This document shows positions 26,826 through 52,190 of a stretch of 64,000 bases of DNA, piece after piece. How positions within the stretch are numbered: the first letter of the stretch is position 1; each line of letters starts with the position of its first letter. The translations under genes and the position numbers were made by a program. The notes under the pieces were generated by a model. The model did no database searches. It was not told the origin of the DNA and saw nothing but the letters and a program-made list of their open reading frames with translations. This DNA is from Prorocentrum cordatum. Taxonomy: Eukaryota; Sar; Dinophyceae; Prorocentrales; Prorocentraceae. The DNA lies in the NCBI GenBank assembly GCA_963575745.1, contig CAUYUJ010015948.1:857681-921680 (forward strand), written 5' to 3'.

Positions 26826-26830
26826 ATTCC
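26826..26830. repeat. Left target-site duplication of Element 1 (ATTCC)
   Basis: ATTCC directly precedes the left LTR and recurs at 43238-43242 directly after the right LTR. Confidence 0.9.
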
Positions 26831-27114
26831 AGTCGAAAACGCACTGGTAAGCCAAGATATATGTTCCGCCTTAGGCGCTCCCATATCCCAGGCTTTGGCT
26901 CATACCGCATGAGCAAGAGAGCAAGATGAAGCATGGGATCTGGAGTAAAGGATAGAAGGGGCATCTTCAATAGAAAGGTCTTTTCCGATCTCAGATGCGA
27001 GTAGTGCGCCTCGGTGAGGCAAAATCACATGTTCGGCCGGGCCCGGCTTGAGCCAGGCACGGCAGCGGTGCATGCTCGATTTACATCTCGCCTTTAACCC
27101 TCTCCGTTTAAAGT
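26831..27114 (-). repeat. Element 1 left (3') LTR
   Basis: 284 bp, identical to 42954-43237 except at two positions (ATGGGATC/ATGGAATC and GGCAAAAT/GGCACAAT). In element orientation it begins ACTTTAAACG and ends TTTTCGACT, so the usual TG...CA termini are absent. It retains the same ATG and open frame as the 5' copy. Confidence 0.97.
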
Positions 27115-27135
27115 TGGAGGGGGAGGGGGCGAGCA
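27115..27135 (-). other. Pyrimidine tract where a polypurine tract is expected
   Basis: Just upstream of the 3' LTR the minus (sense) strand reads GCCCCCTCCCCCTCCA. LTR retrotransposons normally have a purine tract on the sense strand at this place to prime plus-strand DNA. Here the purines are on the opposite strand. Confidence 0.6.
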
Positions 27136-27218
27136 AGCACCGCATTTCTACATTACGCGGAAAAACAGTGCTAGGCAACAGCGGCTGCCTACAAGGCAAG
27201 GGCGCGCGAGTAGCCTCG

Positions 27219-30200
27219 CTACCGGCGAGTTTCCTCGCTACTAAAGCGCACCTGCGCGCGGGTTTCCCCGCTAGCTCGGGAGGCAGGGCCGTCCTGAGAC
27301 GACCTGCCCGCCCTATACGGAGTATGTTTCTTCAGCTCGTGCTTGAAGGATTGCTGACCGGCCATTACCTGTAGGAGCAACGCGCGGTCAATACTACCTT
27401 TGGTATGACCATCGGCAGTCATATCCCGCGTGTCACACCATTGGACGCTTTCAACGATTCCGCGCTCCATCATCTGGCGGATCCAGCTGATGTGCCCAAG
27501 CAGAGTGCATTCTGTGGGCTTCTTCAGATCTTTGCTAGACAAAGACTTGAAGACAGACTCGGCATCAATAGTCAGAGTGACTTTGATACATAGACCACCC
27601 AGTTCCAATATGTTCTTCAACTGTGTGGGGGTCAATGGTCCCGAGTGTAGCTCGTGGAGCGTTACAATGGTCGGGTAGCAGTCTTCCAAGTTGTGGGCTG
27701 CTGCCAGTGTTTCCGCAGAGTAGCTCGAACGCACCTGCAGTCGATGAGACTTGCAGTATGCGTCCACCAGGTGCACGACGGGTTTCCCCGCTTGCGTGTG
27801 GCCACGCCTCAGCAGGTTAGCCCCGCGGATACCGTAGCCTTTGACTTCGTCGTCTTCATCTCCGTTGAGACGACGATAGCCAGAATCGCTATGCAGGTCG
27901 ACCTCTCCTGTTGGAGTCATAGCTTGATACACGATCTTCTTCGGACCTGCCTGCAATTTCCTGGTAACCGCGTTCAGTCGTCGTACCTGGATGTTTGTCG
28001 GTTCCTGGATACGTTGCAGTGAGACAACATAGACCATCAGCCATACCTGCGTGATCAACGCATAGGCTAGAGCGCCACGAAGACTGACGAACATATCAGA
28101 AATCGTCATTGTCGCTTTGCTCTCAGGATCAGCGCCTGTGAGCTCTGGATGTGTGATAGGACGAAGTTGTTTGATGTATTCGTCCTGATCAAGAGTGACG
28201 CTCCCATCATCGGTCTTGTTGTACCGAACGGCACAATTTGTATATGTGTGCTTGTTCAGTTTGCACTTTCCAAACGTATCTTCAACACATTTGACGTACT
28301 TATCAATGGAATCTTCCTTCCCAGTCATATTGATGTCATCAACGTGTTTGGCTGTCAAGAGGTTCGAACTCGTCTCGAACTCTTCATCGTATGAAGTAGG
28401 CTGTAGTCCAAAGCTCCTGGTGATGGACCTGAGCTTCAGCGAGAATGCCCTGGGAGCATCCTTCGTGCCAGTCCCCGGCTTCAGGCACCGAAGACAATGC
28501 TTTGATTCGTCGTATGACTCAAAGCCTGGCAATGTGCGAAGGACAGCTGCTGACCCAGGAGGTAGTGTGAAGCACACCACACGCTCTTTCTCGCCCGTTG
28601 CCGCGGCGAGCTCGCTATAGGTCAGTCCCTTCAAGAAAGCCATGTTGATATCCAGGGAAGCGATGATCCAAGCTTTGTTGCATGCAGCAGAACTTGCGAG
28701 CAGTCTCTGGTTTGACCTCCTTGCCGTGCCAGAGAAGGTTTCGACATCGAAGGCTTCAATGTCCATGAAGCCACGAAGTACCAAGCGTAACCTGATCGTC
28801 CGTTCCATTTCGCCCTTCTCGTTCTTGACAAACTTCCATTTGTATACATAACGTGAAGTCATGATGTTCGACGCTTTGCTCAAGTCAGTCATCTGGAAGC
28901 ATTTGTTGTCAAGCCAAGTCTTCAATTCTGTGTAAAGGGCTTTGGAAACTTTGACCGGATTCGCTTGAATGTCGGCCTTCGTGAGTAGGTCGTCTTCTTT
29001 GACGACCGCGGCACGTTTGGAGGCAGCACTAACATATACTCGCATAGTTGTGACGCTGCTGTCATCCAACAATCGGTGTTGCTGCTCAGACAGGACGACC
29101 TTGGACATGTCTGCTGTGAAGCAAAGCTCGATGTACTTCCCGTGCTCGTCGGAGTCCAGACCATAGTGGCTGTCCGGATCAGTGGAGCACAGAGGAACGT
29201 AGTAAGAAGTGTCCATGTCGTATCCTGGCGGGTGACCCCGCACCGGCAAGTGGCCTTGCACATCTCCACAGGTCGTAGAGACCAACACGCACTGTGAGTC
29301 TGTCATGTATGTAGAAACTGTGTGCATGACTTCTTCTGTGTCAGCTTCAAGGAGTGTTCTGTCATCCATCAGTTCAGCATACCATGACTCCAAGACAAAG
29401 ACATCCAGATCCTCTTCTGTTTCCTCTATGATGGTCGGGAGCCGACCATCATTCGCCGCAGGAGGCTGCTCAGGAGCAGCTGCTGGAGGTGGCTCGCTTG
29501 GTGGTGGACCATCAGCGAGTTCCTCGAACTTAGTGAGGTCTCGGTCGAATCCAGCAGGCGGCTTCTTGGATTTAAGACACTGGATGATGCGTGAATGTGT
29601 AGACCCTGTGATGTCGTAGATGTTCAAGGCAGTGCCATCAGCTTCATAATAATGAAAGCCAGGGGTCACATCGTTATCATAGTGCACTAGTGTACAGCTG
29701 TCTGCATAGGGTGCAGCAGGCAACTTAGTCAGGCTCTTAGCAAGTCGCACAGCAACCACGTTTTCAATGCGAAAATAGTTGCGAATGAGATATTGAAGAG
29801 CCAAGTGCACCTTAGGCGAGAGCCGGCTCGCAGCAGTCATCTGCAGTCGGCCCTGTTTCGCTGGTAGGTATCCGAAAGTCATAGCGGGTTTCCCCGCTGG
29901 CAGACCGGCAATAAAGGCCAATACTGTCCGAAGGGCCGTATTGTCCGATCCTATCTCGCGGACCATCAGTGCTTCGATGTACAGCGTATGTCGTGTGTCA
30001 GGATACTGTACTCGCACTTCGCGACTGCCGACCTTCACGATGACCTGGCCTCGGTCAGGTTCGTTGCGGATGACCGGGTATGGACCACTCCATCCACCCC
30101 AGTCGTCTTTCGTGGTGGTCGGGCGATGATAGTCCACGAGATCTCCCTCTTTGTAGTGAAATTCACCCGTAGCAGTAGTCTTCGTACGAAGAGCCCTGTT

Positions 30201-33200
30201 CGTCTTGGCAACCGCAGTGGCCTGCGTGATTGCCTCCAGACTAACCCTCCTGATTGTCTCTTCCCTTGAGTGATCTGATGATTCAGCGGACTGATCATGA
30301 TCCAGGACAGGGAAATCGGGAAGCATAGCTGGTTGTCTGCCATACAGCGCATTATACGGAGACACTTCGTTGTAGAAGGTAAATGCGTTGCTGGCAAACA
30401 AGGCTTCATGTAAGAGACGAGTGAAATTCAGAGGAATATTCAATCTATTCAGTTCTTCTCCCATCACGTGTATGAGGTGTCGCAGGATGCCGTTCCTAGC
30501 TTCGATAGTCGTGGCGTGCTGGCCACGCGCTCGGATACGAAGCTCTGTTCCCTTGGATTTAAGGATGGCCTTTGCTGTATCGTTATTCAGCGCTCCTTCC
30601 CCATCGGAGTATAGGATCTTAGCAGGGCCATGTTGCATCCAAGTTGTGTGATAGGCATCGAGAACAGCGTGCATAGTCTTATCAGGAATCTCTGTGCCAG
30701 CTGCCCAGCGAATACAACGGTCGATGATGTGAAAAACAATATGTTCCTGTTTGTAAAAGAAAAGATCACATGCGACTTCCTCGTTGAAACGCCCTGGCAG
30801 TGACACGGGAGGCATCACCGTGTTGCCTGGTTTCTCCCAGGCACGACATTCTCTACACGAGTCGCAAATGCCTTTGATCAGACTCAAACGGGTTTCACCC
30901 AGACCAACCTTAGCTAGAATCATCCGCATCTTTGGTTCCTTGGCATGAAACCATCTCAAGTGAAGCTTGTGGAGTTCTCGCTGCACTACAGCTGGGTCAA
31001 AGCTGCGCAGGTTTTGAAGGCTGAGCTGAACGTCGAAGCGAGTCCAATCAGGAAGCCTTGGCCTTGGCCTCGGCTCTGCATGAGGCTGCGGCGGCGGTGG
31101 GGGATCACCTCCCTCCATGCGTCCGCGCCTTGCTGATACTTGCGGCAGTCTGCGGTGATCGTCAGAGCTGCCAGCGCCAGTGGTGTCACCATGAGCCCCC
31201 TCGGCCTTGGTGATGTCATGGCTGCTGGCGCCTGCGGTTGGATCGCCCTCACCGGGCCGTGGCGGCCTAGGCGCGCGCATGCGCGCTTTCGCGGCCGGCG
31301 CCGCTTTTGCGGCTGGCGCCGCTTTTGCGGCTGGAGCCGCTTCCGCGGCTGGCGCCGCAGGAGCGGCTTGCCCCGCTGGGCGCGGCTGACCAAAGTTATC
31401 TGGCAGCTTCCATTTTTCGGCGGATCTGCATTGGCCAGATATCTTGGTATGGTGAGGATTGCTCTTCTGATATTCCTTCTTACAGCTTGGACAGTCCCAA
31501 TAGTATGGTTCAACCTCGTACCATCGACACATCTTCGGATTCCTGCTGTGCCTTGGTGATTGTTTGTAATTGTTGTCTACGCAGCCAGGGCACCCGAGAC
31601 CGCCAGGTGGTGGTCGCAGGATTTCCCCGTTTGAGTGTCTCTGGATTGTTGGGTCGTCCAAGTCGTAGCCAGCATTGCTTGTTACGAACGCGTGACTGCG
31701 TCCGCGATTCGCGAATGGATCGCGACCATAAGCAAACAGATCTTTGGCGATTTGCACCGCATCAACGATCAATGACTGCATTCTGTAGGTATATTGTGCT
31801 GCCCTTGCTAGTTCTTTGTTGCAAGCATTGGCGTGCACATGATTACCTGGACAACGCTTGCCTCTGAAAGGTGCCAACAACTCTTCTTTGTTTGCCAGCA
31901 TTTGTGTTGGCTTGCGAATGTATTGTCCAAACGAATCTTTGAGACCAGTCGTGCATTGATCAATAATCGTTTGGCAAGTGACCTTGCGTTGTGCCAGTTC
32001 CTTCCATGGTTGGATCTCATCTACCCACGTGCCCATAGGTTGTTCCCTGAGAAAGAAACGTCTTAAGTCGTCTTGTAATAGAGCGACTGTTCCGCAGAAC
32101 GTGATGTGAGGCAGGTCCTCTTTGTGGTGTTTAAGCCACGTATCATGATTGACCTGTGCATTGAAGTATGAAGGAAGTCCAGTAGTTCTGCAGTTTGGCT
32201 GCAAAATCGTGATCTTGACAAAGCAAGTCTTGAGGTAGTGAAGGACTGCTCTTTGTACTTCCGAGTTTCCAAGGTCAACCATAGATATCTTATCAAGGTT
32301 CCCGCCCGACGAGAGTCCCCTCTTGAAGGCTAATATGGATATACCACCCTTGCCCCCACATAATTCAAGCATGTCCACTTGATTGTTTCTGCCGTAGCAT
32401 AGTGACTGGACCACCGAGAAGACATCAGCATGTGAGTCAGCGGGTTGCCCCGCCGGTAGCATCATGAAGATGTCCTCTGATTCGCTGTCCGAGTCCGAGT
32501 CATCAAGAGGAACGTCGTTGAAATATGTGGAGCAGTCAAGCCCTTTGAGGTCCTCTCCACAATCGTCGTTACCGTCTTCCACTTTATTCGGGATTTTCTT
32601 CGGTTTGATGCCAGCCTCTCTGTCAGCTTTCTGCTTTACTTTCTGTTTTATCCTGGCATCAGTGGGCAGCGCGGTTTCCGCGGAGAGATCCGCTGCGGAA
32701 GGATCCGCTGTTAGGTCAGGAAATGGCGGAATTTCAGAAAAGTTGGTGGGTCGCGTTTGGCAACGCTCAATCGAAGGGGGAGGAGACCGATCGTCATCGA
32801 CGATCGTCACACGCTTTGGGCGTGGCCTTCGCGACTCACCGTCGCCGTGAAGGACTGGAGCCGGAGGCTCCCAGTACAACCGAGTACTGATGTTTGTAAC
32901 CCCATCAGGTAATGGAGCTACATAATTGTACCCAGTCGGCTGATCCTGGATTTTGATATCTTGAACGATCTTATTCGTGTCCAGGTCGGTCGTGACTCTA
33001 CGAACAACATGGTCCCATTGAGGGCCCTTTTGTGGACATTGAACGTAGTGTCTTACCTTTTTGTCAACGCGCGTACACACACTGAGGTGTACCGCACTCC
33101 GCTCATTCCTAATCATGTTGGCTTTATTGAGTTGATCAAGGAAGCGTGCAGTGATGATAGCCAAGGTTTTATGCCGAAACTCGGCACGTTGCCGAAACTC

Positions 33201-33835
33201 GGCACGTTTTATGCCGAAACTCGGCACCAATCCAAATCATGTTCTTTGTGTGAGCCACAAGTACATCTCCATAAGTTTAGCGGTATATGAGGACAAGCTG
33301 TAGCAACTTGTATATAGGAACCACTGGGATACTTACTGGAGCGATCAAACTTGATACCGAAATGACAAAGTCTCATTCGTATGATGCTCAGCTTCAAATC
33401 TTCGATAACATCTTTGATCGGACCCTGTTTCCAGAAATACCCGGGTGGCCCCAGGATGACAATCTGCATTCTCAGAGCACGCGCTTTGATCAGGAGATTT
33501 TGTATACGTTGATAGTGGGGTCCCGCCCTCTTTCCTGGAGTACGAACGTACCAATCAGAGGGTGTGGCCACCCACAACATATTATAGTCTCCTGCCAACA
33601 AGTTTCCCAAATACTGTGTTCCAGTTGAAGTCATTACCTCATTATGGGTAATCCGGTCACATATATAGCCACGGGTTCGGAGTTCAGCGCAAGCTGTGCG
33701 AATATCTTCGATAACGAGACATTTTGAATGATATTTTTCCTCTCGGGCCTCAGCGCGGCCAACGTATGTAGCGAGGAGGCCGGCATTCGGCTTCTCTTCG
33801 CAAGCGAGCGCCGCCGGCGCGCCCGCCTGCCCCCG
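27219..33835 (-). CDS. Element 1 Pol segment: methyltransferase-like, integrase, reverse transcriptase, RNase H (62-bp insertion frameshift)
   Basis: This is the third part of the giant polyprotein, about 2,184 codons once the 62-bp repeat at 33166-33227 is discounted. It follows an in-frame TGA at 33836-33838 and ends at 27219. In order it holds an N-terminal segment ending in a C-x-C-G...H motif (LWRCTCGSHKEHDLD), an acidic linker, a Rossmann methyltransferase-like domain, Ala/Lys linkers, integrase, reverse transcriptase and RNase H. The enzymes copy the element's RNA and integrate the cDNA. The open frame is otherwise intact for nearly 6 kb, consistent with recent activity. As it stands the frameshift and TGA would block translation unless bypassed. 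Confidence 0.93.
27480..27960 (-). other. RNase H domain (Element 1)
   Basis: Copia-type RNase H. DLHSDSGYR supplies the first Asp, SSYSAETLAAAHNLED the Glu, LTIDAESVFKSLSSKD the next acidic residue, and DTRDMTADGHTKGSID the last Asp. It degrades RNA in the RNA-DNA hybrid during reverse transcription. Confidence 0.88.
28060..28970 (-). other. Reverse transcriptase domain (Element 1)
   Basis: RVT_2-type polymerase. The landmarks are RYVYKWKFVKNEKGE, IIASLDINMAFLKG (first catalytic Asp) and TAKHVDDINMTG, whose DD at 28335-28340 is the active-site pair, with HVDD in place of the usual YVDD. It synthesises the element's cDNA. Confidence 0.95.
29990..30990 (-). other. Integrase with HHCC zinc head and D,D,E core (Element 1)
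   Basis: The zinc module is H-x3-H...C-x2-C (LHLRWFHAKEP ... ICDSCREC). Core acidic residues are seen in EVACDLFFYKQ, ILYSDGEGALNN and ATTIEARNGILRH. A GPYPVIRNEPD C-terminal GKGPY-like stretch follows. It integrates the cDNA and makes the 5-bp duplication. Its position upstream of RT defines the element as copia-type. Confidence 0.93.
31290..31360 (-). repeat. Four 18-bp-spaced GCGGC-NGGN-GCCGC hairpins
   Basis: Copies at 31291-31304, 31309-31322, 31327-31340 and 31345-31358 have perfectly paired 5-bp stems and loops CGGC, TGGC, TGGA and TGGC. They encode the linker AAPAAKAAPAAKAAPAA. The same palindrome type is dispersed through the element. Confidence 0.85.
31800..32410 (-). other. Rossmann methyltransferase-like domain (Element 1)
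   Basis: VDMLELCGGKGGISILAFKR resembles the SAM-binding motif I of class I methyltransferases, especially cytosine-5 enzymes (D-x-F-x-G-x-G-G). It is followed by an acidic beta-strand end (ISMVDLGNSEVQR), VKITILQPNCRTTG with a Cys where C5 enzymes have P-P-C, and RRFFLREQP in the place of the E-N-V motif. Similar domains are known to me from other dinoflagellate copia polyproteins (recalled, not checked). The match is partial and the catalytic role uncertain. It may have lost activity or bind rather than methylate. Confidence 0.55.
33166..33227 (-). repeat. 62-bp insertion of three palindromic units that breaks the Pol frame
   Basis: Three tandem units of 22, 18 and 22 bp each contain GCCGA-GTT-TCGGC, a 5-bp stem with 3-bp loop. 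Sixty-two bases is not a multiple of three. Excising exactly these units joins ...KEHDLD to CLAIITARFLDQLN in one frame, and makes the whole ATG-to-stop length divisible by three. Confidence 0.9.
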
Positions 33836-36800
33836 TCAGCGGCTGTCGTGAGACCAAGTTGCCGCTTGACTCGGAGGCGTGCTGTTCGCGGATGGCTCCG
33901 CAGGAGTCGCTGGCGTGGCCGCGCTCGCAGACAGACTCGGCGGATTGTTCTCAGAGATGTCAAAGTATTCCGTCCGATCCGTAGCGTGACCCACGATCTC
34001 CGCTCTCTCACCTCGCTGTGTGCATGACGACAGCAGGCGGGTTGGCCCCGCAGAGTCCGACGAACCTCCGCCCGTGTAGCTTGGTGGTGGTGGCGGTGAC
34101 GCGGGTGGCCCCGCTGGATCCTCAGGCGCCCATTTGCTCACCGCCTCCTGGACTGCCCAGAAGATCTTGGACTTCAGGGCGGCCTCTGCGTTCTCAGGAG
34201 GTGGGTGCCAAGTCCCTTCGGGACCCTGTCGGCCCTCCCACCAGCTGTTCAGCGTCCTGCTCACGATCAAACGGGTCGTGTCCTCCAGGAGCTGCTTGTC
34301 GATATACGGCTCGACGATGTACGTATCGGTCGTGAAGGTCGCGGACTGTCCCGTCGCGGGTGGCCCCGCTGTCGCGTCAGCGGGTGGCCCCGCACTGACG
34401 GGGTCCTCTTCGTTCTCCGTCTCGGTGTAGCCATCTCGACTGCTGCGGATCGTGAAGGTGTTCGTGACCGTGTGGCTCTTGGCCCCATCGTACAGCCCGC
34501 AGGGAATCGCAAGATGTCCCGAGGGAGTCTTCTTCGCCTTCAGGACCTTGGCGCCTCTTCCCAGCTTCAGGGTGTAGTCGCCGCTGGGGAAGATGACCTT
34601 CTGGTAGCCCGGCTTCAACACGATGATCGTATCACGTGCCTCCATGGCTCCTAGGCCCCAGATAGCCGGGAGATTGGCGCCCGAGCCTTCTGCGATGTTG
34701 GAGGCATACTCCTCAATGCGGGGGCTCGCCTCGTTGGCGTACTGTACCCCGATCTTGAAGTTGCCCATCTTCCGACATATCGCAGCGCCCTCCCCAACAC
34801 CATTGATGTAGAGGGTCTTGCTCAGGGTGCAGATGGCAGGTCGGTAGTTGAACCTGGCCATTATCTCCTGGAAGGTCCGCGCCGTGTTGGATCCAATGAT
34901 GTTCACATTAGAACCAATGTCCAGCATGAACGAGATACAGGGCATACCATCTTCATCAGGAAAGAATGTCCCATTGCGCGCTGCAAGAGCGACCTGTACG
35001 CCAGTGTGGTCGTTGGTGTGGTACGTGATCTGCGATCCGAGTGTACCCCTCAACAGGCGCTGTTCAAGAACCCATTGACTCATGGTCAGCTCGGTGCACC
35101 ACATCTGCTCGTACTGGCGGCGCTCCTCCACAGTAATCGGTTCCTGCTGGAGGACCCAATAGTTTGCAGATAGCGTGGACATCCATTCGCCTCCTGGTGG
35201 CAGCGTGTCAGTATCGTCACGCGCGTAGGTCAGCCCCTCTGTGTCGATCATGAATGTGGAATGGAACTGGGCTGCCTCTGCGCTCTCAGCGCTTGCCCGG
35301 CTTCTGGCGCTGACCGGGCTTGCCACTCGAGAGGTCCTGGTCGATCCAGTTGGCCTCCGAATCCCGCCTCCGCTCCTGCCACTCCGCCTGATGTTAGCCT
35401 CCATGTTCCTCAAGAAACCTGGGTTTGGAGGTCCGTTAGCGGGTGGCCCCGCTTGGGCGGCGGGAGCCGCTTCAGCGGGTGGCCCCGCAGCTGGGGGCTC
35501 TTGCGCTCGGAGCGTGGGCAAGATCGGCATCTGAATGCCTTGTTCTGGCGCTGGCCAGGGGTATGCCTGTGCAGCTGGGGCACGTGCGGATGGCTCCGCC
35601 GATCGTGCGGCTCGAGCCTCCAGTGCCTCCACTGCTTCGCGTAACCGACGCATTTCGCGGGCATCTGCAACGTACCTCTCCTGCTGGCGCGCTTGGTCCG
35701 ACTCAGCATCGCGCTGTCCAGCATACGGGAAGTGTGCTATCACTATGCCCGGTCCACGGCATACGGCACAGGGGGCCTCATTCGGCGCACCTGGCCGCTG
35801 ATTGCGGACATGCTGCTGTGCAACACGGTCCCAGCATATGTCGTGGAAGAAGTGCCCGCGCGCCAGTCTCCACACTGTAGTACCCATCTCGTAGTTGTCC
35901 ATGCAGATTGGGCACTGAGTGAAGTTGTAGTCTGAGATGACTGGAGCAGGCAGGTCAGGGCGAGTCCGAGCTTGGCGCTCGAACGTGGTTTCGCCCTCCC
36001 GATATGGCGTCGGTGGCGGCCGCCTTTCTGGCCGTTCAGCAGGTGGCCCCGCTTCCGCGGGTGTCCCCGCTTGGGCCTCGCGCTCAATCCTTCTCTGGAT
36101 CGCGCGTTGTTGGCGCAGCCTAGTGTTGTCACGAGCCTGCTGCCTGGATGCCAGTATCGCTTGCTGCGTGTTGTGCACGTCGCGGATGTAGTCTGGCATG
36201 CTGCCCATAGCGGCTGGCACCGCGAGACCAGCTGGCTGAACTATGGTCTCGGGGTCCGTCGGCGTGGGCATGTAGGCGTAGTGTGGCATAGACTGCGCAT
36301 CGACCGCTCGTGTAAACTGCAAACGAAACATCTCATTAGCTAAGTTCCGAGTGTATTCGTTCGCAGGTGGCCCCGCAATCATAGGAGTGTTATTCATCTG
36401 CGCGTAGTACTCAGGGTACATCGGCGCGTCCATGGCCGGCGCCTCTGCTGGACCGTGATTGTCCCATCCGTATATCGGGTGTGATGCTATTCCTGGAATA
36501 AACACCTGTCGATATGGATTCGTGGGATCAGCGTTTGGAGCATCTTCAGAAGTCCAACTCCAGAGAGGTCGGAAGTCGCCATGGCTTGTAACGTCTATGT
36601 TGCGGTTCCGCAACAGGCTGGGCACTCTTTCAGCTTGTTGTTGCAGAAAAGTGGCCTGTGCTCTTAAGTTAGCTGCCCGACGTTCGTAGTCTGAACCTTG
36701 CTGTCCGTCAGCGGGTGACCCCGCTTGAGCGGGTGGCTCCGCAGGCGTTCGCTCAGCGGGTGACCCCGCAGCCGCTCCTCCTTCACTACCCCTCGGAGTG

Positions 36801-39148
36801 CCAAAGGGAGTGGTTGCTTGGAGTGCTGCCGCGAGTGCTGGATTTCCGCGAATCGCCTGGAGTCTTTGCCACAAGCTGTTCTCGCTCGTTTCAGACGGCG
36901 GAGTCCGGAACGGCGAGCCACCATCGGAGCCGCCCATAGGGACAAACCTCGCACCTCCAGCCTGCTGCGGAGGGCGTTGTGGCTGTGGTCCTAGGGCGCC
37001 TGGTGGCCCCGCAGGAGTGCGCAGGTTCCTCTGCTGTGCGTCTTGGATACCTGCATGCACTGCCCACGGGTCAGCACGGTATAGCTGATCGGTCAGTCCA
37101 GAAACGTCGGCTGGTGACAGGTAGCTGTTGAGGGCCTGGACCCATGTCTGCTGGTCCGGCCTCCAAGGAGATGCTACTGCGGCTACTGGCGTGACCACTT
37201 GCTGCCATGAACCATCCGAGGTGTCTGCCGCGGGTGTCCCCGCTCCTGCGGGTGGCCCCGCCTCAGGCATGACCTCGTCTTCCTGGGCATTTATCATGAG
37301 GACTGTCTGTGTGAGGTACGGTCGTGGAGCAACGTCTTGCTCGGTCATGGTCAGGTTGAATGGGCGACCGCCCGTCTTAGTCCAGCCCTTTTGGTACATG
37401 GCGTGCTCGTCCATCACACCCAGAGTTCTGTCGCACATTTTAAGTGGCAAGTAGTCCTCGGAGCAAATCCTGTCCGCGGGTTGGCCCCGCTTCCGCGATT
37501 TGTCGTAAGCCAGCGGATTGCTCCAGGCTTCACCGACCCGATATTTTGCAATGCTCACAATCTGAAGGATATGATCGGGCGGTATGCGGCCATTGTGGCC
37601 CCGTGTCATGACGATGTCATTCGCTGGCCTCCATAAAGAGAAGCCGCTGGACAACATCTTGCTGATGCTGCAGAAGATGAGCACCCCAGAGTCAGGACGG
37701 ATGCCCGACTGAATCCTCGGGTCACCCGGGAGGTAGGGGCAGCCGTGAACGAACTGGCGCCCCCCCTGCCCCTTAGGGTTGTCCTGTGCGAGGCATGAAA
37801 GGCCATTCTCAAGGATGCCCTTAACGTGCTCCCACTGTGTCCCGTGGATAAAGTATACTGGGTCATCTGGTTCCTTCATCCATGTCGTGATGGGCTTATA
37901 GAGCGACTCTGGGCAGTGGATGCCTGGGCTGCTATGGCCGTTCGTGGCTCTGATGAAATATTGTGGCCTGCGTGCCGTTGGTCGGAATCTGGGAGGTAGC
38001 TTCATGCTATCCTCGACGCATTTCATCTGGAGCCTGCCCTTCTGCATGCCATGGTTGTCGATCATCTCGCAGCAGTTCAGCAACGCCCAATGCACGTATG
38101 AGCAGTGAGGGTTGCCCTTGATAAGCACATCGTGCATGTCCCGGTAGCCTTTCCACTGATTGTCACCAGTCCAATTTGTCAGCAAGTCGTCAACAACAAC
38201 CCAGCCATCGTATGGATCGAAAGTGTCAATCTTTTCGGAGTGTCGGCTGAATCCATCTTTCCAATACGGACTATGGCGTAGGGCTGTAGAGAACCATATT
38301 GACACCTTGGCCATTTGCCAATCGCGCGGCAGAGTCGGATCTGTGTTAAACCTCTTCATGACCTTCATGAGCTCTGCCTTGTGCTGCGCGACGCGCAATG
38401 GCGGCCTGTCCCGCAACATATTGCCCACGACTTGTTGTTCACGTTCCCATTCATTACGGCACTCGAAGTTACGACGATCGGGGCAATTGATGACCTCGTA
38501 TCGATCTGTATCATCTCGAGTGACTCGTGGGTTTATGGTGCGTTTCGGGCCTTTGTCTTCAATGCCTTGCCAATATTCAATGGCTCCCAGAGGGATGTTC
38601 TTGAGAACAGACGACGCTGGTTGCCGACGTGCGGGTGGCCCCGCTGCTGCAGCTGGCGCCGCTGCGGCTGCCGAGGCAGCTCCAGCGGATGACCCCGCAC
38701 CAGGGTGCGGGTGACCTTGGTCAGCCAGCGCATCGTCGGCTAGTTTCTGTCGGTTGTCAATTTCTTTGAGGGCTTTGCGGCGTTCTTCTTCTGAGGGAGT
38801 GCCTTCTGCGGGTGTCCCCGCTGCTGCAGCTGGCGCCGCTTTAGCGGGTGGCCCCGCAGAGCCCTTGTCCTCCTTACCTTTGGCGGCTGCCTCTGCCCGC
38901 GCCGACCTCAACCCAGCCTCGGGCTTCGGTTGTGCTTTCATTCGTGCCGAGCCTGGTCGTGGTGCAAGGCGCGGCTGATGCAGAGTTGGAGTCCAGTCAC
39001 CTCGGAAGGATGCCTTAGGCTGGTTGCGATCTTCGTCCTTGACGTCGCCTTGGGCAGCCGGTGGCATCGGGGCTGATGGTCCAGCAAAAGCCTTCCTCCT
39101 CTCCGTCACGGACGGGCCGGTAGGCTCTCCCGGCTCAGGGTCGTCCTT
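33836..39148 (-). CDS. Element 1 middle polyprotein segment: Tpt1/KptA-like, RING-like, aspartic protease
   Basis: An open frame of 1,770 codons lies between the in-frame TAG at 39149-39151 and the TGA at 33836-33838, in the same frame as Gag and as the start of the Pol segment. It begins KDDPEPGEPTGPS, so it has no start of its own and depends on readthrough or on an ancestral sense codon. In order it has Ala/Pro-rich linker, a Tpt1/KptA-like domain (37550-38317), a long Pro/Gln/Ala-rich region, a RING-like domain (35741-35925), linker, and an aspartic protease (34640-34960). Linkers are rich in AGPPA-type peptides encoded by the dispersed mini-hairpin. The stop could be a late mutation. Confidence 0.9.
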   Translation of the reverse strand, partial: KDDPEPGEPTGPSVTERRKAFAGPSAPMPPAAQGDVKDEDRNQPKASFRGDWTPTLHQPRLAPRPGSARMKAQPKPEAGLRSARAEAAAKGKEDKGSAGPPAKAAPAAAAGTPAEGTPSEEERRKALKEIDNRQKLADDALADQGHPHPGAGSSAGAASAAAAAPAAAAGPPARRQPASSVLKNIPLGAIEYWQGIEDKGPKRTINPRVTRDDTDRYEVINCPDRRNFECRNEWEREQQVVGNMLRDRPPLRVAQHKAELMKVMKRFNTDPTLPRDWQMAKVSIWFSTALRHSPYWKDGFSRHSEKIDTFDPYDGWVVVDDLLTNWTGDNQWKGYRDMHDVLIKGNPHCSYVHWALLNCCEMIDNHGMQKGRLQMKCVEDSMKLPPRFRPTARRPQYFIRATNGHSSPGIHCPESLYKPITTWMKEPDDPVYFIHGTQWEHVKGILENGLSCLAQDNPKGQGGRQFVHGCPYLPGDPRIQSGIRPDSGVLIFCSISKMLSSGFSLWRPANDIVMTRGHNGRIPPDHILQIVSIAKYRVGEAWSNPLAYDKSRKRGQPADRICSEDYLPLKMCDRTLGVMDEHAMYQKGWTKTGGRPFNLTMTEQDVAPRPYLTQTVLMINAQEDEVMPEAGPPAGAGTPAADTSDGSWQQVVTPVAAVASPWRPDQQTWVQALNSYLSPADVSGLTDQLYRADPWAVHAGIQDAQQRNLRTPAGPPGALGPQPQRPPQQAGGARFVPMGGSDGGSPFRTPPSETSENSLWQRLQAIRGNPALAAALQATTPFGTPRGSEGGAAAGSPAERTPAEPPAQAGSPADGQQGSDYERRAANLRAQATFLQQQAERVPSLLRNRNIDVTSHGDFRPLWSWTSEDAPNADPTNPYRQVFIPGIASHPIYGWDNHGPAEAPAMDAPMYPEYYAQMNNTPMIAGPPANEYTRNLANEMFRLQFTRAVDAQSMPHYAYMPTPTDPETIVQPAGLAVPAAMGSMPDYIRDVHNTQQAILASRQQARDNTRLRQQRAIQRRIEREAQAGTPAEAGPPAERPERRPPPTPYREGETTFERQARTRPDLPAPVISDYNFTQCPICMDNYEMGTTVWRLARGHFFHDICWDRVAQQHVRNQRPGAPNEAPCAVCRGPGIVIAHFPYAGQRDAESDQARQQERYVADAREMRRLREAVEALEARAARSAEPSARAPAAQAYPWPAPEQGIQMPILPTLRAQEPPAAGPPAEAAPAAQAGPPANGPPNPGFLRNMEANIRRSGRSGGGIRRPTGSTRTSRVASPVSARSRASAESAEAAQFHSTFMIDTEGLTYARDDTDTLPPGGEWMSTLSANYWVLQQEPITVEERRQYEQMWCTELTMSQWVLEQRLLRGTLGSQITYHTNDHTGVQVALAARNGTFFPDEDGMPCISFMLDIGSNVNIIGSNTARTFQEIMARFNYRPAICTLSKTLYINGVGEGAAICRKMGNFKIGVQYANEASPRIEEYASNIAEGSGANLPAIWGLGAMEARDTIIVLKPGYQKVIFPSGDYTLKLGRGAKVLKAKKTPSGHLAIPCGLYDGAKSHTVTNTFTIRSSRDGYTETENEEDPVSAGPPADATAGPPATGQSATFTTDTYIVEPYIDKQLLEDTTRLIVSRTLNSWWEGRQGPEGTWHPPPENAEAALKSKIFWAVQEAVSKWAPEDPAGPPASPPPPPSYTGGGSSDSAGPTRLLSSCTQRGERAEIVGHATDRTEYFDISENNPPSLSASAATPATPAEPSANSTPPSQAATWSHDSR
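34640..34960 (-). other. Retropepsin-like aspartic protease domain with DIG motif (Element 1)
   Basis: CISFMLDIGSNVNIIGSNTA has the hydrophobic-hydrophobic-D-x-G active-site loop of retroviral-type proteases, with Asp encoded at 34919-34921. ANLPAIWGLGAMEARDTIIV downstream fits the second hydrophobic-G strand of the fold. The residue after Asp is Ile, not the usual Ser/Thr. The domain would cut the polyprotein. Confidence 0.75.
35741..35925 (-). other. RING-H2-like domain lacking one zinc ligand (Element 1)
   Basis: CPICMDNYEMGTTVWRL then ARGHFFHDICWDRV then APCAVCRGPG reproduces the C-x2-C, H-x2-H-x2-C and C-x2-C spacing of a RING-H2 finger. The Cys expected before GH (L-x-C-G-H) is Arg. 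RING-H2 proteins are typically E3 ubiquitin ligases. Whether this variant still folds or recruits an E2 cannot be told. Confidence 0.7.
37550..38317 (-). other. Complete Tpt1/KptA-like RNA 2'-phosphotransferase domain (Element 1)
   Basis: Residues about 265-520, counting from the GTG at 39109, carry the Tpt1/KptA landmarks in order. These are ALRHSPYW (catalytic R and H), DGWVVVDDLL, YFIRATNGHSS (second R and the NGH signature), YFIHGTQWEHVKGILENGLS (HGT...GL), IQSGIRPDSGVLIF (fourth catalytic R) and NDIVMTRGHNGRIPP. Tpt1 removes the 2'-phosphate left at RNA ligation junctions by transferring it to NAD+, best known in fungal and plant tRNA splicing. The length, about 255 residues, is near the family norm. 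Nothing disrupts it. Its presence in a retrotransposon polyprotein is unusual. Confidence 0.85.
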
Positions 39149-42100
39149 CTAGGCGATCCCTCTGGCCTTCGCACGCCCCCGTGCACCTTCGGGGCTCTTG
39201 CAAGGATACCTCTTCGCAGGAGAAGGTGGAGGCGAGGAGTCGGCTTCAGGCCCTGGAGGTGGTTTGTTGCCTTCGTCTGGTTGTGGGCCAGGAGGGTCTT
39301 TAGGAGGGCCTTCTGGCTGGCCATGATCAAGGATGACCTGCCTCATCTGGTCGATGTTGGCAGTACCTTTTATGGCCAGCTTGTACTTGCCATTTTCGTG
39401 GCGGTAAAGTACCCTCGTGCAAAACCACTTCTGTGCCGAGGAGCTGTAGTACCAGCAGGCGCATCCATCAGGGAATGGATTCTCTGAGCCGTCTTCCGCC
39501 GCCCATTCTTCGTTCAGTTCGGTCTGGTCAGTACCGGCGGCGGACCCGGCAGCAGATGCAACAGCCATCCACTCTTCGTCCGCGGACCCAGCGGCTGGCG
39601 CCGCGTCTGCGGGTGACCCCGCACCTCCGCTGGAGTCTGCGGGTGACCCCGCCTCTTTATGGAATCGGCGGTTCCATTCTTTGAGGCGATGGTCTTTAGG
39701 AAGCTGTTCCCAATTTTCCCTGACAGTGTCAGCAACCTCCTCGGTCATAGGGACGCGATCGGCTTCGGTAATGCGCTTTCCTCCTCCAGGGACCTTCTTG
39801 TTAGGATCGTGGACGGTGCCAGCGTCATCTCCATGAGACCAGTTCCAGGGGGTCTCACCGTGATGAGGGCTCCTGGAGGGGCGGTCCATTGGACAGCCGC
39901 GCATGTGACCTTTGAAAGGCTCGCATTGACATACTTGTTTCCTGTATGTCTTGCGATCGTTGATGATCTCCTGTTTCTTAGCCCTTCGGTCCCAAGCCTC
40001 TGGCGTTTTAGTCTTGCCACCTTTGGTGCGTATTATGATGCCAGATTCGTCCCGTTTGCAGTGCTCCTTGGACCACCAGTGGCGGATCACGTCCATCGAG
40101 TAGCCGGGGTACCAATTGATGTACCACTCCGGCACGTACTGAGCGGATACACCTACGGAGTGCTCCGTGCTGTACGGGTAGCCAGATGCATCATGTGTAG
40201 GGCGTCGTGGAGCTGAACGGCTCCTCCTGCGGGTTGGCCCCGCTGACGCACTGCCACGTTCCATGGGCCTTTCATCTTCATGGCGGTGCTCTGGGTCTCG
40301 GGGTGGCGATGGTCGTCTGTTCTTCTTTGCATGGCGCCTGTCCTCCGAGTCCTCTGAGCTGTCCTGGACCATGAATGCGTGCTGATGCGGGCTTTGGAAG
40401 TACCCGATGTCGGTCAGCTGCTCCATAGTGAGGTCGTTGAGGTCCATCTGGTCGCAGCCCTGCATGAATTCGTCCATAGACCAAGCGGGTAGCCCCGCTG
40501 CTGCAGCTGGCGCCGCTTCGGCGGGTGGCCCCGCTAGAGCCTGGAGTGCAGTCAGCATCTGAGGTGCCGACATATCAGGATCCAGGTATGGACGCAGCCT
40601 TGCGGCCCCTGGGCGCGACAGCAGGTCGTTCATGGTCATCTGCTGATGTGCTGGCGCACTCAGGAGCTGGATCGCTTCTGCGACCTGCTCTTGGAGCCTG
40701 TCATCATAGTCCTCTTCGGCCTCTTCAGAGTCAGAATAAGCTGCGGGATGGCCCCGCATTTCGTCGTCAGCGTCTCCCGCTTCCGAGCCGGCTCGCGAAA
40801 GATCAGGCAGCAACGGCGTGCCGATCACCTGCGGTGCCAGCGCGGCGGCGAGCTCCTCCTCGGTCGCCGGGGCGGTCTCAGCTTCGGAGATCTCGTCGTC
40901 GGCGGGTGGCCCCGCTGGAAGACCGAACCAAGCGTTGAACACGCCCTCGTCGACTTCGTCCCAGCCGTGGAACTCGTCGAAGAGGGTCACCGCGTACTCT
41001 TCCAGGGCTACGGTCGCATCAGCGTAGCGGGCCATCACGTAGTACGTGGAGGAGCCTGCGGCGGGAGCCGCTTCTGGATTGACGTAAAACTCGTAGTCAA
41101 TGTAGTCTATGTCATCCATAAAAGAGTTTTGAGCCAAATGTACGGATCCCTTTCCTTTCCCCTTCGGGCAATGATCGCGCAAATGCTCTGTACTACCGCA
41201 TGTATGACACTTCATAGTGTTGCCAGAAGCGTCCCTAGGGTTACCCCTCCGCCCTTTTCCCTTACCAGAGGTCCGCCTGTGACCCCGACCTTTGCCTCCG
41301 ATAAGTACTTCTTCAAAAGCTATATCAGTTAAGGACGTGAGGAAAGCAGTGATACCCCTACCATGCATACGGCGTCTGCGACCCCCCTTGCCACGACCCT
41401 TTCCATAGCGTTTGAAATGTCGGCGTACTGCACGTCTCACTTTTCTGACCGGTTTCTTCATAAAGCGCCTCCAACGGCGTTTTGATTTGCGATAAGCCGT
41501 AAAAGCGGCTTCCGCTCTTTGTTGTTCAGAAAGGTGAGTGTCATCAGCTGGATAGTCATTGCCAGCAGAGACCATACCATTGTGATCACCGTCAGATGAG
41601 GTATCTGTGTCAGTGCCAGATTCAAACGGAGAAGGTGGCTGAAACCCTCGAGCGGATGACTCCGCTTGGCCCCAGAGGGTTGTGCCCGAGGGCGGGCTTG
41701 CAGTGTAGGCGGCGCCCGGCGTGTAGTTCGACCAGGCGTTCGCCTCCGCTGCCTCTGCCGATGCCTGGCCGGTCTGCCCTAAGAGGGCAGTGGCCTCGTT
41801 GGGCATATCGGCTGGATCAGCCCAGGGACTTGGCTCGCCAAGACCAGCGGGTGACCCCGCAGTCGTGGCGTAAACACCTGCATGTGCGTGGTGCCCTGTG
41901 AAGATACCCGCAATGTTGCCAGGAGAGCGCTCGGCAACATGCCCGTAGTTCCTCATCCTGGTTAGCAGCCTATCATAGTCTGCTTGCGTTCTGGGCATCT
42001 GATGATTAAAGGGCTCCAGCAGGTGTTGGGCTCGTGACGCGCCAACGCCAAACGCTCTGAAAAGGATCAGCGTTAGGATCTGAAAGTTGGGGATGACAAA

Positions 42101-43087
42101 TCCAACAGAGTTAGCCTCGTCACGGGCCATCTCGAATCGAGCTAACACTGAGTCGATTCGTTCGTCCCTTTCGACGCGAAAGTCGATAAGGGCAGTGCCA
42201 GAGTTGAGCTGGCGCTCATCTTCCAGATTTTCAAATTTGGTGCTCAATAGGTAAAGTATATAAGTAACTGCATCCGTTGGCTGTCCGTTGACAGTTACAC
42301 CATAGTTGATGATCTGGGATGGGACCTGCATGGCGATACGACGAGCAAGGCCTTGAAGACCACGTTGTAGTGCTGCAGCTTGCTGAGGTGGCGTCATATT
42401 GCCGCTCGTCACGTTGATCCATGCATGTACTTCGCGAACGTACTCGCGAAAGGGCGTAGTACCGGCTGGGTCCCAAGAAGGGCCGGTAGTACGCGCGTCG
42501 TCCATCCCCTGCCGCATGTAGCCCACAGCACATCCCATTATCACCCATAGAATGCCGAAGATAGTTATCTTGATCCAGTGCATGTGCATCTCGGCTTCGG
42601 TGATTGGTTTAGGCTGTGGTTTGTCAGGCTCGGGCGTAGCAGCCGTAAGGCGCCTGAACGGCACGGGATGCAGGTGGCCCCGCTGCGGGTAGCCCCGCAG
42701 AGTGACCACGTTCTCGATCGAGTTGCCGATTGGCATCTGGTGGAAGTCGGGAGTGAAGTAGCGCAGTGAAGTAGGAGAGAGCGTCTCGAGCTCGCGGGTC
42801 GCCCCGCTGGCCCGATCGCGGACTGGCTCCGCTCCACGCAGAGCCGGCGCAACATGGTATTCCACCGTAGTAGTAGTCCACCAAGTTGTGCCGTGGATTA
42901 TGGGTATTAGAGCGAGAGCCAGCCACACGAGAGTGTAGCCAGCTCCGCTACCAAGTCGAAAACGCACTGGTAAGCCAAGATATATGTTCCGCCTTAGGCG
43001 CTCCCATATCCCAGGCTTTGGCTCATACCGCATGAGCAAGAGAGCAAGATGAAGCATGGAATCTGGAGTAAAGGATAGAAGGGGCAT
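39149..43087 (-). CDS. Element 1 Gag with two hydrophobic segments and CCHC knuckle
   Basis: The start chosen is the first ATG of the frame (43087), which lies inside the 5' LTR and reads MPLLSFTPDSMLHLALLLMR. The frame continues through the primer-binding site without a stop. Two hydrophobic segments follow at about residues 50-66 (YTLVWLALALIPIIHG) and 167-190 (WIKITIFGILWVIMGCAVGY). They precede a helical capsid-like region (about 41.9-42.5 kb; REYVREVHAWINVTSG) and a zinc knuckle C-x2-C-x4-H-x4-C near residues 625-639 (CHTCGSTEHLRDHC). The rest is acidic and Ala/Pro linker. The frame ends at TAG 39149 after 1,312 codons. Gag packages the RNA, and the membrane segments hint at membrane association. 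Confidence 0.88.
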   Translation of the reverse strand: MPLLSFTPDSMLHLALLLMRYEPKPGIWERLRRNIYLGLPVRFRLGSGAGYTLVWLALALIPIIHGTTWWTTTTVEYHVAPALRGAEPVRDRASGATRELETLSPTSLRYFTPDFHQMPIGNSIENVVTLRGYPQRGHLHPVPFRRLTAATPEPDKPQPKPITEAEMHMHWIKITIFGILWVIMGCAVGYMRQGMDDARTTGPSWDPAGTTPFREYVREVHAWINVTSGNMTPPQQAAALQRGLQGLARRIAMQVPSQIINYGVTVNGQPTDAVTYILYLLSTKFENLEDERQLNSGTALIDFRVERDERIDSVLARFEMARDEANSVGFVIPNFQILTLILFRAFGVGASRAQHLLEPFNHQMPRTQADYDRLLTRMRNYGHVAERSPGNIAGIFTGHHAHAGVYATTAGSPAGLGEPSPWADPADMPNEATALLGQTGQASAEAAEANAWSNYTPGAAYTASPPSGTTLWGQAESSARGFQPPSPFESGTDTDTSSDGDHNGMVSAGNDYPADDTHLSEQQRAEAAFTAYRKSKRRWRRFMKKPVRKVRRAVRRHFKRYGKGRGKGGRRRRMHGRGITAFLTSLTDIAFEEVLIGGKGRGHRRTSGKGKGRRGNPRDASGNTMKCHTCGSTEHLRDHCPKGKGKGSVHLAQNSFMDDIDYIDYEFYVNPEAAPAAGSSTYYVMARYADATVALEEYAVTLFDEFHGWDEVDEGVFNAWFGLPAGPPADDEISEAETAPATEEELAAALAPQVIGTPLLPDLSRAGSEAGDADDEMRGHPAAYSDSEEAEEDYDDRLQEQVAEAIQLLSAPAHQQMTMNDLLSRPGAARLRPYLDPDMSAPQMLTALQALAGPPAEAAPAAAAGLPAWSMDEFMQGCDQMDLNDLTMEQLTDIGYFQSPHQHAFMVQDSSEDSEDRRHAKKNRRPSPPRDPEHRHEDERPMERGSASAGPTRRRSRSAPRRPTHDASGYPYSTEHSVGVSAQYVPEWYINWYPGYSMDVIRHWWSKEHCKRDESGIIIRTKGGKTKTPEAWDRRAKKQEIINDRKTYRKQVCQCEPFKGHMRGCPMDRPSRSPHHGETPWNWSHGDDAGTVHDPNKKVPGGGKRITEADRVPMTEEVADTVRENWEQLPKDHRLKEWNRRFHKEAGSPADSSGGAGSPADAAPAAGSADEEWMAVASAAGSAAGTDQTELNEEWAAEDGSENPFPDGCACWYYSSSAQKWFCTRVLYRHENGKYKLAIKGTANIDQMRQVILDHGQPEGPPKDPPGPQPDEGNKPPPGPEADSSPPPSPAKRYPCKSPEGARGRAKARGIA
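41170..41211 (-). other. CCHC zinc knuckle of Gag
   Basis: CHTCGSTEHLRDHC fits C-x2-C-x4-H-x4-C, flanked by basic Gly/Lys/Arg-rich sequence. It is the nucleic-acid-binding signature of retroelement nucleocapsid domains. Confidence 0.93.
42942..42953 (-). promoter_or_regulatory. Primer-binding site of Element 1
   Basis: Immediately inside the 5' LTR the sense strand reads TGGTAGCGGAGC. TGG followed by a tRNA acceptor complement is the standard minus-strand primer site, and TGGTAGC fits an initiator-Met-type tRNA 3' end (GCUACCA). The site lies inside the Gag reading frame (LGSGA). Confidence 0.88.
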
Positions 43088-43237
43088 CTTCAATAGAAAG
43101 GTCTTTTCCGATCTCAGATGCGAGTAGTGCGCCTCGGTGAGGCACAATCACATGTTCGGCCGGGCCCGGCTTGAGCCAGGCACGGCAGCGGTGCATGCTC
43201 GATTTACATCTCGCCTTTAACCCTCTCCGTTTAAAGT
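42954..43237 (-). repeat. Element 1 right (5') LTR
   Basis: 284 bp and 282/284 identical to the left copy. It contains the Gag ATG at 43085-43087, 151 bp from its outer end, so the promoter and transcript start should lie in the outer half. Confidence 0.97.
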
Positions 43238-43242
43238 ATTCC
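43238..43242. repeat. Right target-site duplication of Element 1 (ATTCC)
   Basis: Identical to 26826-26830. Confidence 0.9.
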
Positions 43243-43960
43243 GCATCGGTCTCCGCAAGCGAGGACGCTCGCGTGCAGCTTTGTTTCGGCAGCTAGAGGT
43301 GCGTGGCACATCTCCCCGCTGCCTTAGCGACATGACGGCATACGATCGTTACGATCGTTGTAACGACAGGCTGAGTCCCAAAAAGACACCCCCTCCCCCC
43401 TCCCCGACTTCCCCCCCGATCCAATCGCAATCTCGCGCGAACGCCTCGCGGGGGGGGGGGAGAGAGAAGGATGCGTGCGACTTGGAGGCGGGCGGTCTGC
43501 TGCCCCCGAGCCACCGGCGAAGCGCCGCCCCCACCCCCCACACACAGGAGGCCCAAACTGAAGAACTACGCTGGGATTGAGAGGCCACATCGTCGCATGT
43601 CTGGGGCGAGGGGAGCGCGCCGTTCAGCCACATACGCGCAACCGTGACCCTGGGAGCCAATGACCTCCGGCGCGCAGCTTACGGGGCTGCGGAAGGGGGG
43701 GAGAGGAGGGGGGGGGGTGGCAAAGCCAGGCGCGCAAGCCGCTGTTGTTGCGTCGCGTTCGGCGACGGGGGGGGCCCAAATGGCCCGCAGCAGGACACTC
43801 TGGCGGAGGGTCGCTCATTCGTGTAGCCGACCTGTGGCCAGAGCGGAGGACGCCGCGCTGGGCCTCTCACACCCCGCGGAGCCGCTGCCCTCCTGCACAG
43901 ATGGGCTCTCCGCGGGTCGCCCGTACAGCAGAGCGAGCGGCTCGGCGGCGAGCGGCGGCG
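43243..43960. other. Spacer with GC-rich runs
   Basis: No gene supported. It has poly-G runs near 43450-43460 and 43695-43720 and mixed GC-rich sequence. ORFs on both strands are compositional. Confidence 0.5.
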
Positions 43961-44165
43961 GCGAGCGACGAGGACGAACGACGACGAGGGCGGGGGACGA
44001 CGGCGGACGACGGCGACAGCAGCGGACAGCAACGACGGACGACGGATGACGACGACGAACGACGGTGGACGACGACAGCCAGATGACAACCGAATGACGG
44101 ACGACGGACAACGACGGCGGACGATGACGACGGACGACGACGAGAGGCGTCCCCGCTGGCGTCGC
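43961..44165. repeat. (GACGAC)n/(ACGACGG)n degenerate microsatellite
   Basis: Dense GACGACGAACGACGG-type repeats run for about 200 bp. Translations are low complexity in every frame. Confidence 0.85.
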
Positions 44166-44254
44166 CGGGCGGAGGCGCATCTGGATGGCCTCGCCGTCCT
44201 GGCGGCCCCGCGTCTTTCGTCCTCATGCTCGTCATCGTCCTCCTCTTCGACGTC

Positions 44255-45115
44255 ATCGCCCTCCCCCTCCTCCTCCTCCTCCTCCTCCTCCTCCTCCTCC
44301 TCCTCCTCCTCCTCCTCCTCCTTCCTCCTCCTCCCCCTCCTTCTCCTCCTTCTCCTCCTCTTCTCCTCCTTCTCCTCCTTCTCCTCCTTCTTCTCCTCCG
44401 CCCCTTCCCCCCCCATGCGTCCTCCCGCTCCTTCTCCTCCTCCTCCTCCTCCTCGTCCACCTGCTCTTCCTCTTCCCTCCTTGCATTTCTTCCTCCCTCC
44501 TCCTGCTCTCATCCCCTGCGCCCCCCCCCCCCCCTCTCAGTCCAACTCGACGCCTCCTCACACCTTCTTCTCCTCCGCATCCTCTTCGTTCATCTCCTCC
44601 TCCTCCTCCTCCTCCTCCTCCGCCTCACCCTCGCTTTGATGTTTCTGCCCCTCCTGCCTTCTGTGCGCCCTCGACTTAGTCCCCTTTCTCTTCCTCCTCA
44701 GCTCCCCTTTCTCTTCCTCCTCCTCCTCCTCCTCCTCCTCCATGGCCCTCCTACCGCGCAAAAGGAGAGGCCATATGGGAGCAGGCCCCTGGGGGTCCTT
44801 CTCGGAGCTCTAACTGTCCCGCCAACGCATTCTCGCGGCAAGGACCCCCCCCGCCCTAGACCGACGGTGCCGGGGCCGCCTCGCCGGGGGGGCGACGCAG
44901 TCCTTGAACTTCGGCGCAGAGGGCAGGGAGCTGGCGAAGGAGGCCATCTTGTCGGCGGGGACCTGAGAAGCTGGCAGCTCCTCCTCCTCCTTCTCCTCCT
45001 CCTCCTTCTCTCCTTCCATCCCTTTTCCCCTCCTCCTTTCTCCTCCGCCGCCCCTCTTCTTCTGCTCCCCCCCCTGCCCCCGTCCGTCACGCCCCCCCTC
45101 CTTCCTCCCTTGGCC
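44255..45115. repeat. (CCT)n pyrimidine-rich region, interrupted
   Basis: Long cctcctcct runs occupy about 44262-44455 and 44595-44760, with further CTCCTCCTTC blocks near 44980-45110. A poly-C run lies near 44521-44534. Long open frames (Pro/Leu/Ser or Glu/Gly/Arg) on both strands are artefacts of the triplet repeat. Confidence 0.85.
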
Positions 45116-51507: not shown

Positions 51508-52190
51508 TGAAAATTCACACCCCTCACGCGGATCCGCAGGGGTCAGGGTCCAAAAACATATGGGATTTGCTACATTTTTGAACTTCAGTGGCACCCCTCA
51601 CACAGATCGGCGGGGTCAGGGTAAAAAAACATATAGGATTTGCCACATTTCTGAAATTCAGTGGCACCCCTCACGCAGATCGGCGGGGCCAGGGTCCAAA
51701 AACACAAAGGATTTGCCACATTTCTCAAATTCGGCGGCACCCCTCATGCAAATTGGCGGGGTCAGGGTCCAAAAACACAGGGGATGTGCCACATGTCTGA
51801 AATTCGGCGGCACCCCTCACGCAGATCGGCGGGGTCAGGGTCCAAAAACATATGGGATTTGCCGCATTCCTCAAATTCGGCGGCACCCCTCACGCAGATC
51901 GGCGGGTCCAAGAACATATGGGATTTGCCACGTTCCTGAAATTCGGTGGCACCCCTCACGCAGATCGGCGGGGCCAGGGTCCAAAAACACAGGGGACGTG
52001 CCACATTCCTGACATTCAGTGGCACCCCTCATGCAAATCGGCGGGGTCAGGGCCCAAAAACATCGAGGATTTGTAACATTTGTGAAATTCGGTGGCACCC
52101 CTCATGCAAATCGGCGGGGCCAGGGTCCAAAAATAGAAGGGATTTGCCACATTTCTGAAATTCGGCGGGGGTCAGGGTCGAAAAACAAAC
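51508..52190. repeat. 73-bp satellite, about nine monomers
   Basis: The unit reads GGCACCCCTCACGCAGATCG, GCGGGGTCAGGGTCCAAAAA, then CATATGGGATTTGCCACATT and CTGAAATTCGG. Spacing is 73 bp between most copies, with minor truncations near 51900 and 52165. Six-frame ORFs repeat the unit and are not genes. Confidence 0.93.

Follow-up and report, generated by a model that had tools for sequence, protein, structure and literature searches.

A Tpt1/KptA-type RNA 2'-phosphotransferase domain within an open reading frame of a Ty1/copia-type long terminal repeat retrotransposon of Prorocentrum cordatum

The question raised by this locus is what an RNA-processing enzyme would be doing inside the polyprotein of a long terminal repeat (LTR) retrotransposon. 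The element lies in a stretch of 64,000 nucleotides (denoted here as the window) from the dinoflagellate Prorocentrum cordatum (assembly GCA_963575745.1, contig CAUYUJ010015948.1, positions 857,681 to 921,680), in which a sequence-only reading had recognized a complete domain resembling Tpt1/KptA. In a two-step reaction, Tpt1 transfers an RNA 2'-phosphate to NAD+ (PMC6333775); it also occurs in organisms without a known 2'-phosphate substrate (PMC6333775, PMC6582358). As described below, the domain proved to be a genuine member of this family, embedded in the second open reading frame (ORF2) of the element, with its catalytic residues in place.

The segment of ORF2 under consideration matched the Pfam family PTS_2-RNA (PF01885) with 60.3 bits (E=3.2e-16, cut-off 26), and the family was also found when the entire ORF2 was scanned (E=7.4e-14). 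The sequence of human TRPT1 matched the domain with E=8.3e-12. The predicted model, compared by means of VIA-align 2 with chains ranked by Foldseek, matched both lobes of these enzymes, namely the winged-helix RNA lobe and the ADP-ribosyltransferase NAD lobe. Profile and structure comparisons, therefore, returned the Tpt1/KptA family and fold, as had been anticipated, and the assignment is far beyond chance. A spurious match of a low-complexity ORF was rejected on the basis of the Pfam score and the fold match, and so was a bacterial contaminant gene, since the domain is of the eukaryotic type and lies between LTRs. The likeness to eukaryotic TRPT1/Tpt1 (human, 7yw3; mouse, 7yw2; yeast, 7yw4) comprises the two-lobe fold, the Arg-His-Arg-Arg tetrad and the HGT motif, and includes an LPGDP-I-SG-R segment of the animal type. 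Unlike these proteins, the element domain is part of a retrotransposon ORF, has longer loops (with a core of about 256 residues) and presents extra flanks on both sides, common to a related protein, P0003, described below.

In the Cth enzyme, the tetrad consists of Arg18, His19, Arg68 and Arg121, Lys66 (the equivalent of yeast Lys69) is found two residues before Arg68, and the HGT motif (101-103) contacts the NAD ribose (PMC6333775). In the element, an LRH motif aligned with the fungal LLRH in alignment A3, pointing to R291 and H292, while yeast positions 69 and 71 aligned with K370 and R372 of the sequence QKGRLQ. The human TRPT1 Arg located 20 residues past the HGT His aligned with R464 of the sequence GGRQFV, a spacing equal to that between H101 and R121 in Cth. 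Yeast R138, which we take to be the tetrad residue, also aligned with R464. As read from these alignments, the tetrad of the element is R291, H292, R372 and R464, with all four residues intact. The sequence-only reading had correctly placed the Arg-His pair and the HGT motif, but had assigned the remaining positions to R400 (YFIRATNGHSS) and R485 (SGIRPDSG); these do not belong to the tetrad, although they are conserved nonetheless (41/44 and 30/34 aligned rows, respectively).

The domain occurs in many database entries, and its restriction to a single copy was discarded. The use of ORF2 residues 225-640 as a query yielded five proteins: four P. cordatum gene models, which are only pieces (69-87% identity), and P0003, an ENA entry with a length of 1627 residues, which shows 40% identity across 94% of the 416 queried residues and carries precomputed PF01885 and RING domains. 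A query with the domain alone retrieved 10 proteins, and one with alignment A2 retrieved 73 (by label, 59 from Pyramimonas sp. in EukProt, 7 from ENA, 5 from P. cordatum and 2 fungal). The Pyramimonas-labelled entries are short ORFs and may stem from another organism in the culture; strings in P0015 and P0077 resemble translated sequencing adapters. In P0019 and P0025, Tpt1 continues into an AGxPA linker like that of ORF2, and P0025 also contains SDGSW. In the P. cordatum models P0004, P0007 and P0014, a Tpt1 piece is joined directly to a protease-region piece, and in P0073 a protease-region-like piece and a Tpt1 piece appear in reversed order, which suggests that this entry is rearranged or misassembled.

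The placement of Tpt1 beside RING-like and DIGS motifs is conserved in P0003, which represents a distant element. When ORF2 and P0003 were globally aligned and six regions, with borders set by us, were scored, Tpt1 was the best kept (123/242 identical residues, 51%), followed by the RING-like part (34/71), the protease region (66/166) and three linkers (17/61, 133/347 and 26/98). One 50-residue bin past the DIGS motif was equally high (27/50), so the protease region is not uniformly poorly kept. For residue conservation, 76 proteins contributed 79 aligned rows, which were partial and did not include the self and fungal rows. Retention was 24/24 for R291, 21/25 for H292, 44/46 for R372 and 31/35 for R464. 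Only P0003 and P0008 span the four positions, and P0003 retains all of them, so that the tetrad has not been lost from every related element; some rows with broken motifs are probably decayed copies. No related DNA loci were found among viral contigs (queries P0003, A2, ORF2 and pol) or genome contigs (query A2), and tblastn against phage records gave no match.

The whole retrotransposon is oriented on the minus strand (Table 1) and, as expected for a Ty1/copia element, shows two near-identical LTRs and a target-site duplication. The LTRs differ by only two mismatches, in support of its earlier description as a young element, and the duplication is of 5 bp (GGAAT), or 7 bp (GGAATAC) if AC is assigned to the target. 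The candidate primer-binding site, TGGTAGCGGAGC, presumably resembles the complement of the 3' end of an initiator-Met tRNA. No polypurine tract is visible before the 3' LTR (27115-27130), where the sense-strand bases are pyrimidine-rich.

Table 1. Features of the retrotransposon (coordinates within the window)
Feature	Position	Strand	Basis or remark
5' LTR, 284 bp	42954..43237	(-)	GGAAT abutting at 43238-43242
Candidate primer-binding site TGGTAGCGGAGC	42942..42953	(-)	immediately past 5' LTR
ORF1, Gag-like	39149..43147	(-)	stop TAG 39149-39151
CCHC knuckle CHTCGSTEHLRDHC in ORF1	41168-41209	(-)	zinc knuckle scores under Pfam cut-off
ORF2, 1770 codons, in the ORF1 frame: Tpt1, RING-like, protease-like	33836..39148	(-)	stop TGA 33836-33838
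Tpt1/KptA domain, ORF2 residues 278-533	37550..38317	(-)	Pfam, sequence and fold matches
Tetrad R291	38276-38278	(-)	LRH motif
Tetrad H292	38273-38275	(-)	LRH motif
Tetrad R372	38033-38035	(-)	alignment with yeast (QKGRLQ)
Tetrad R464	37757-37759	(-)	alignment with human and yeast (GGRQFV)
HGT, ORF2 residues 435-437	37838-37846	(-)	motif
RING-like motif, ORF2 residues 1078-1131	35756..35917	(-)	scores under Pfam cut-offs
Protease-like DIGS motif, ORF2 from residue 1410	34910..34921	(-)	motif only
Open stretch beyond ORF2 TGA, frame unchanged, preceding shift to pol frame	33209..33835	(-)	
pol ORF, 2005 codons, integrase-like motifs upstream of Ty1/copia reverse transcriptase	27219..33236	(-)	
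3' LTR, 284 bp	26831..27114	(-)	GGAAT abutting at 26826-26830

Of the three long ORFs, the Gag-like ORF1 and ORF2 are separated by a single TAG within the same frame, and pol lies in another. The previous statement that the domain is in frame with Gag holds insofar as the frame is the same and the Tpt1-RING-like-protease-like stretch is uninterrupted, but the TAG separates this stretch from Gag. In the Pfam scan of four ORFs, only the Tpt1 domain and a reverse transcriptase of the Ty1/copia type (RVT_2, PF07727, at 28125-28907; 41.9 bits, cut-off 31.6) exceeded the curated cut-offs. HHCC/DDE integrase-like motifs ahead of the reverse transcriptase were read by eye, without a Pfam or PDB match, and the RNase H was assigned by motif. 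Searches in Pfam with the protease, integrase, RNase H and Gag pieces, and in PDB with the protease and integrase pieces, gave no credible match. The protease named by the sequence-only reading stands as a motif of the aspartic protease type (LDIGSNVNIIG, MDIGSNVNIVG in P0003), but was not confirmed by profiles. The RING-like motif reads LARGHFFHDIC in the window and LQCGHTFHKDC in P0003, with an Arg at a presumed zinc-binding Cys. The window copy does not present what we take to be the full set of RING zinc ligands, so its RING may be broken while its Tpt1 is intact.

The hairpin TGCCGAGTTTCGGCA is found in three near-tandem copies at 33166-33227, precisely at the frame change towards pol, and might represent either a recoding signal or a frame-breaking repeat expansion. 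Seven palindromes of the form (A/T)GCGGG-4 or 5 bases-CCCGC(T/A), often encoding AGxPA, are dispersed through the element ORFs (positions 42699, 40758, 40499, 39623, 36725, 35453 and 29898); since the scan required perfect stems, the match of the outer pair adds no further evidence. P0003 contains AGQPA/AGNPA, in comparison with mostly AGPPA in the window, as if the repeat had been homogenised within each element. The element contains 13 perfect GC-rich hairpins, whereas 50 triplet shuffles gave 2.8 on average and never more than 7; such hairpins are, however, equally dense elsewhere in the window (40 in 47,589 bases), so this excess is not special to the element. Tandem arrays lie within 12678-15992 and 51518-52165; a 9-bp GCGCCAGGT array of about 137 copies adjoins an array of 103-213 bp units, and a 73-bp array has 9 copies. 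Rfam at gathering scores gave no matches at 26000-44500, and a scan of the whole window found no tRNAs.

How unusual is this arrangement? Beihai picorna-like virus and a Botrylloides leachii nidovirus also carry a KptA domain in a polyprotein (PMC9503650), which makes the idea less isolated than the sequence-only reading supposed; these are positive-strand RNA viruses, not LTR retrotransposons, and they are likened here by description only. KptA is also found in Bodo saltans mimivirus, in phages and in sawfly baculoviruses (PMC9503650). The baculovirus homolog is of the eukaryotic type, as in the element, but it is a separate gene of a DNA virus and not part of a polyprotein (PMC3230848). Reverse-transcribing agents are represented by retroviruses such as Walleye dermal sarcoma virus, whose 2H phosphoesterase belongs to the same RNA-end/ADP-ribose network but differs from Tpt1 in fold and reaction (PMC9503650). 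As for dinoflagellates, LINE and DIRS retrotransposons of Symbiodinium have captured DNA methyltransferases and kept their active site, although the enzyme, the substrate (DNA) and the retrotransposon classes are different (PMC5890265). No LTR retrotransposon with Tpt1/KptA was found in full-text literature searches, which covered few subscription journals and no bioRxiv preprints, and this is consistent with the earlier claim that none has been described.

The explanation that we favor, to which we give an even chance, is that a Ty1/copia-type LTR retrotransposon captured a eukaryotic TRPT1 and kept it under selection for NAD+-dependent RNA-phosphate processing. The gene would have been inserted in an ORF between Gag and pol. 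The domain would then be made within a Tpt1-RING-protease polyprotein, partly via readthrough of the TAG after Gag, and released, or packaged with the element RNA, to process RNA phosphates at the expense of NAD+. The NAD+-dependent removal of an RNA 2'-phosphate is a predicted activity of the domain. The likeliest step would be repair or clean-up, that is, the stripping of internal or terminal 2'-phosphates from element RNA or tRNAs. Such phosphates would arise from cleavage by metal-independent host RNases and subsequent religation, and their removal would let the element RNA be translated and copied. It has been argued that viral KptA aids the repair of RNA cut by metal-independent RNases (PMC9503650).

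Several observations weigh against this explanation. The best PF01885 stretch covers profile positions 67-177 of 177, and both the PDB sequence matches and a profile comparison with two fungal Tpt1s (95% probability) correspond mainly to the C-terminal lobe; because the Pfam stretch omits it, the evidence for the N-terminal lobe with the Arg-His pair comes from the fold match, the LRH motif and the relatives. Concerning active-site geometry, R464 (model residue 240) is at the edge of a loop with a predicted local distance difference test score (pLDDT) <50, and P0008 has Ile in its place. Within HGT, Gly is retained in 38/39 rows, and His and Thr in 29/39 and 31/39. Since the scan of the four ORFs revealed no RNA ligase or other repair enzyme, a partner would have to be supplied by the host. 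Given the stop codons that follow Gag (TAG) and ORF2 (TGA), and the frame change of pol, either recoding or separate translation is needed, or this copy is partly decayed. Finally, in yeast lacking tpt1, primer extension yields an elongated product past the 2'-phosphorylated HAC1 junction (PMC6456296), from which we infer that a 2'-phosphate is no absolute block to reverse transcriptase; this weakens the former proposal that 2'-phosphates stall the enzyme.

We take repair to be the likeliest role and, next to it, ADP-ribose capping of 5'-phosphate ends of element RNA or cDNA, which would proceed at the same active site and would protect such ends against exonucleases or sensors. In vitro, ADP-ribosylation of 5'-phosphorylated RNA is known for human TRPT1 and Streptomyces KptA, the human enzyme requiring the identical tetrad (PMC6582358), and the element enzyme is of the TRPT1 type. 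Sequence does not discriminate between the two reactions, but 2'-phosphotransfer is the one conserved across homologs (PMC6582358), and capping appears unlikely, if still a serious competitor. A domain that is no longer enzymatic, acting in RNA binding or contributing structurally to Gag or the particle, would fit its position adjoining Gag, as well as the relatives without one tetrad residue and the HGT His replaced in 10/39 rows. Against this stands the complete set of tetrad and HGT in both the window copy and P0003 at a Tpt1 identity of barely half, and we regard this possibility as improbable.

ADP-ribosylation of a host protein or RNA to blunt defence seems slightly more doubtful still. 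Many viral ADP-ribosyltransferases evolve fast, suggesting a role in conflict (PMC9503650), and the adjoining RING-like motif could add interference with the ubiquitin pathway, but a typical conflict effector would not be expected to be the best-kept region of ORF2 nor to retain the RNA-binding tetrad. A recent chance capture without function, in which an exon of the host TRPT1 was caught in one element, is the explanation that we find very hard to sustain. It is true that, apart from P0003, the relatives consist of fragments or chimeric gene models, and that motifs are broken in some of them, but the domain occupies the same position, with the same neighbors, in P0003, and the Pyramimonas-labelled P0019 and P0025 share the linker motifs. 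The association looks, therefore, old and kept.

Beyond this copy, and with somewhat less than even confidence, we propose that there are LTR retrotransposons in dinoflagellates, and perhaps in a green alga, that form a family and carry in their particles an NAD+-dependent enzyme of their own for RNA repair or capping. If so, this form of retrotransposon RNA maintenance, of which we have found no description, would link retrotransposition to NAD+, and it would mean that the host habitually cuts element RNA or modifies its ends. That the element carries Tpt1, and that it is better conserved than the protease region, points to RNA with phosphate marks or phosphate ends as a real obstacle, or a tool, in these cells. 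The capture of Tpt1 extends the range of enzymes acquired by retrotransposons, and the element would provide a compact test system, with one enzyme, one RNA and one life cycle.
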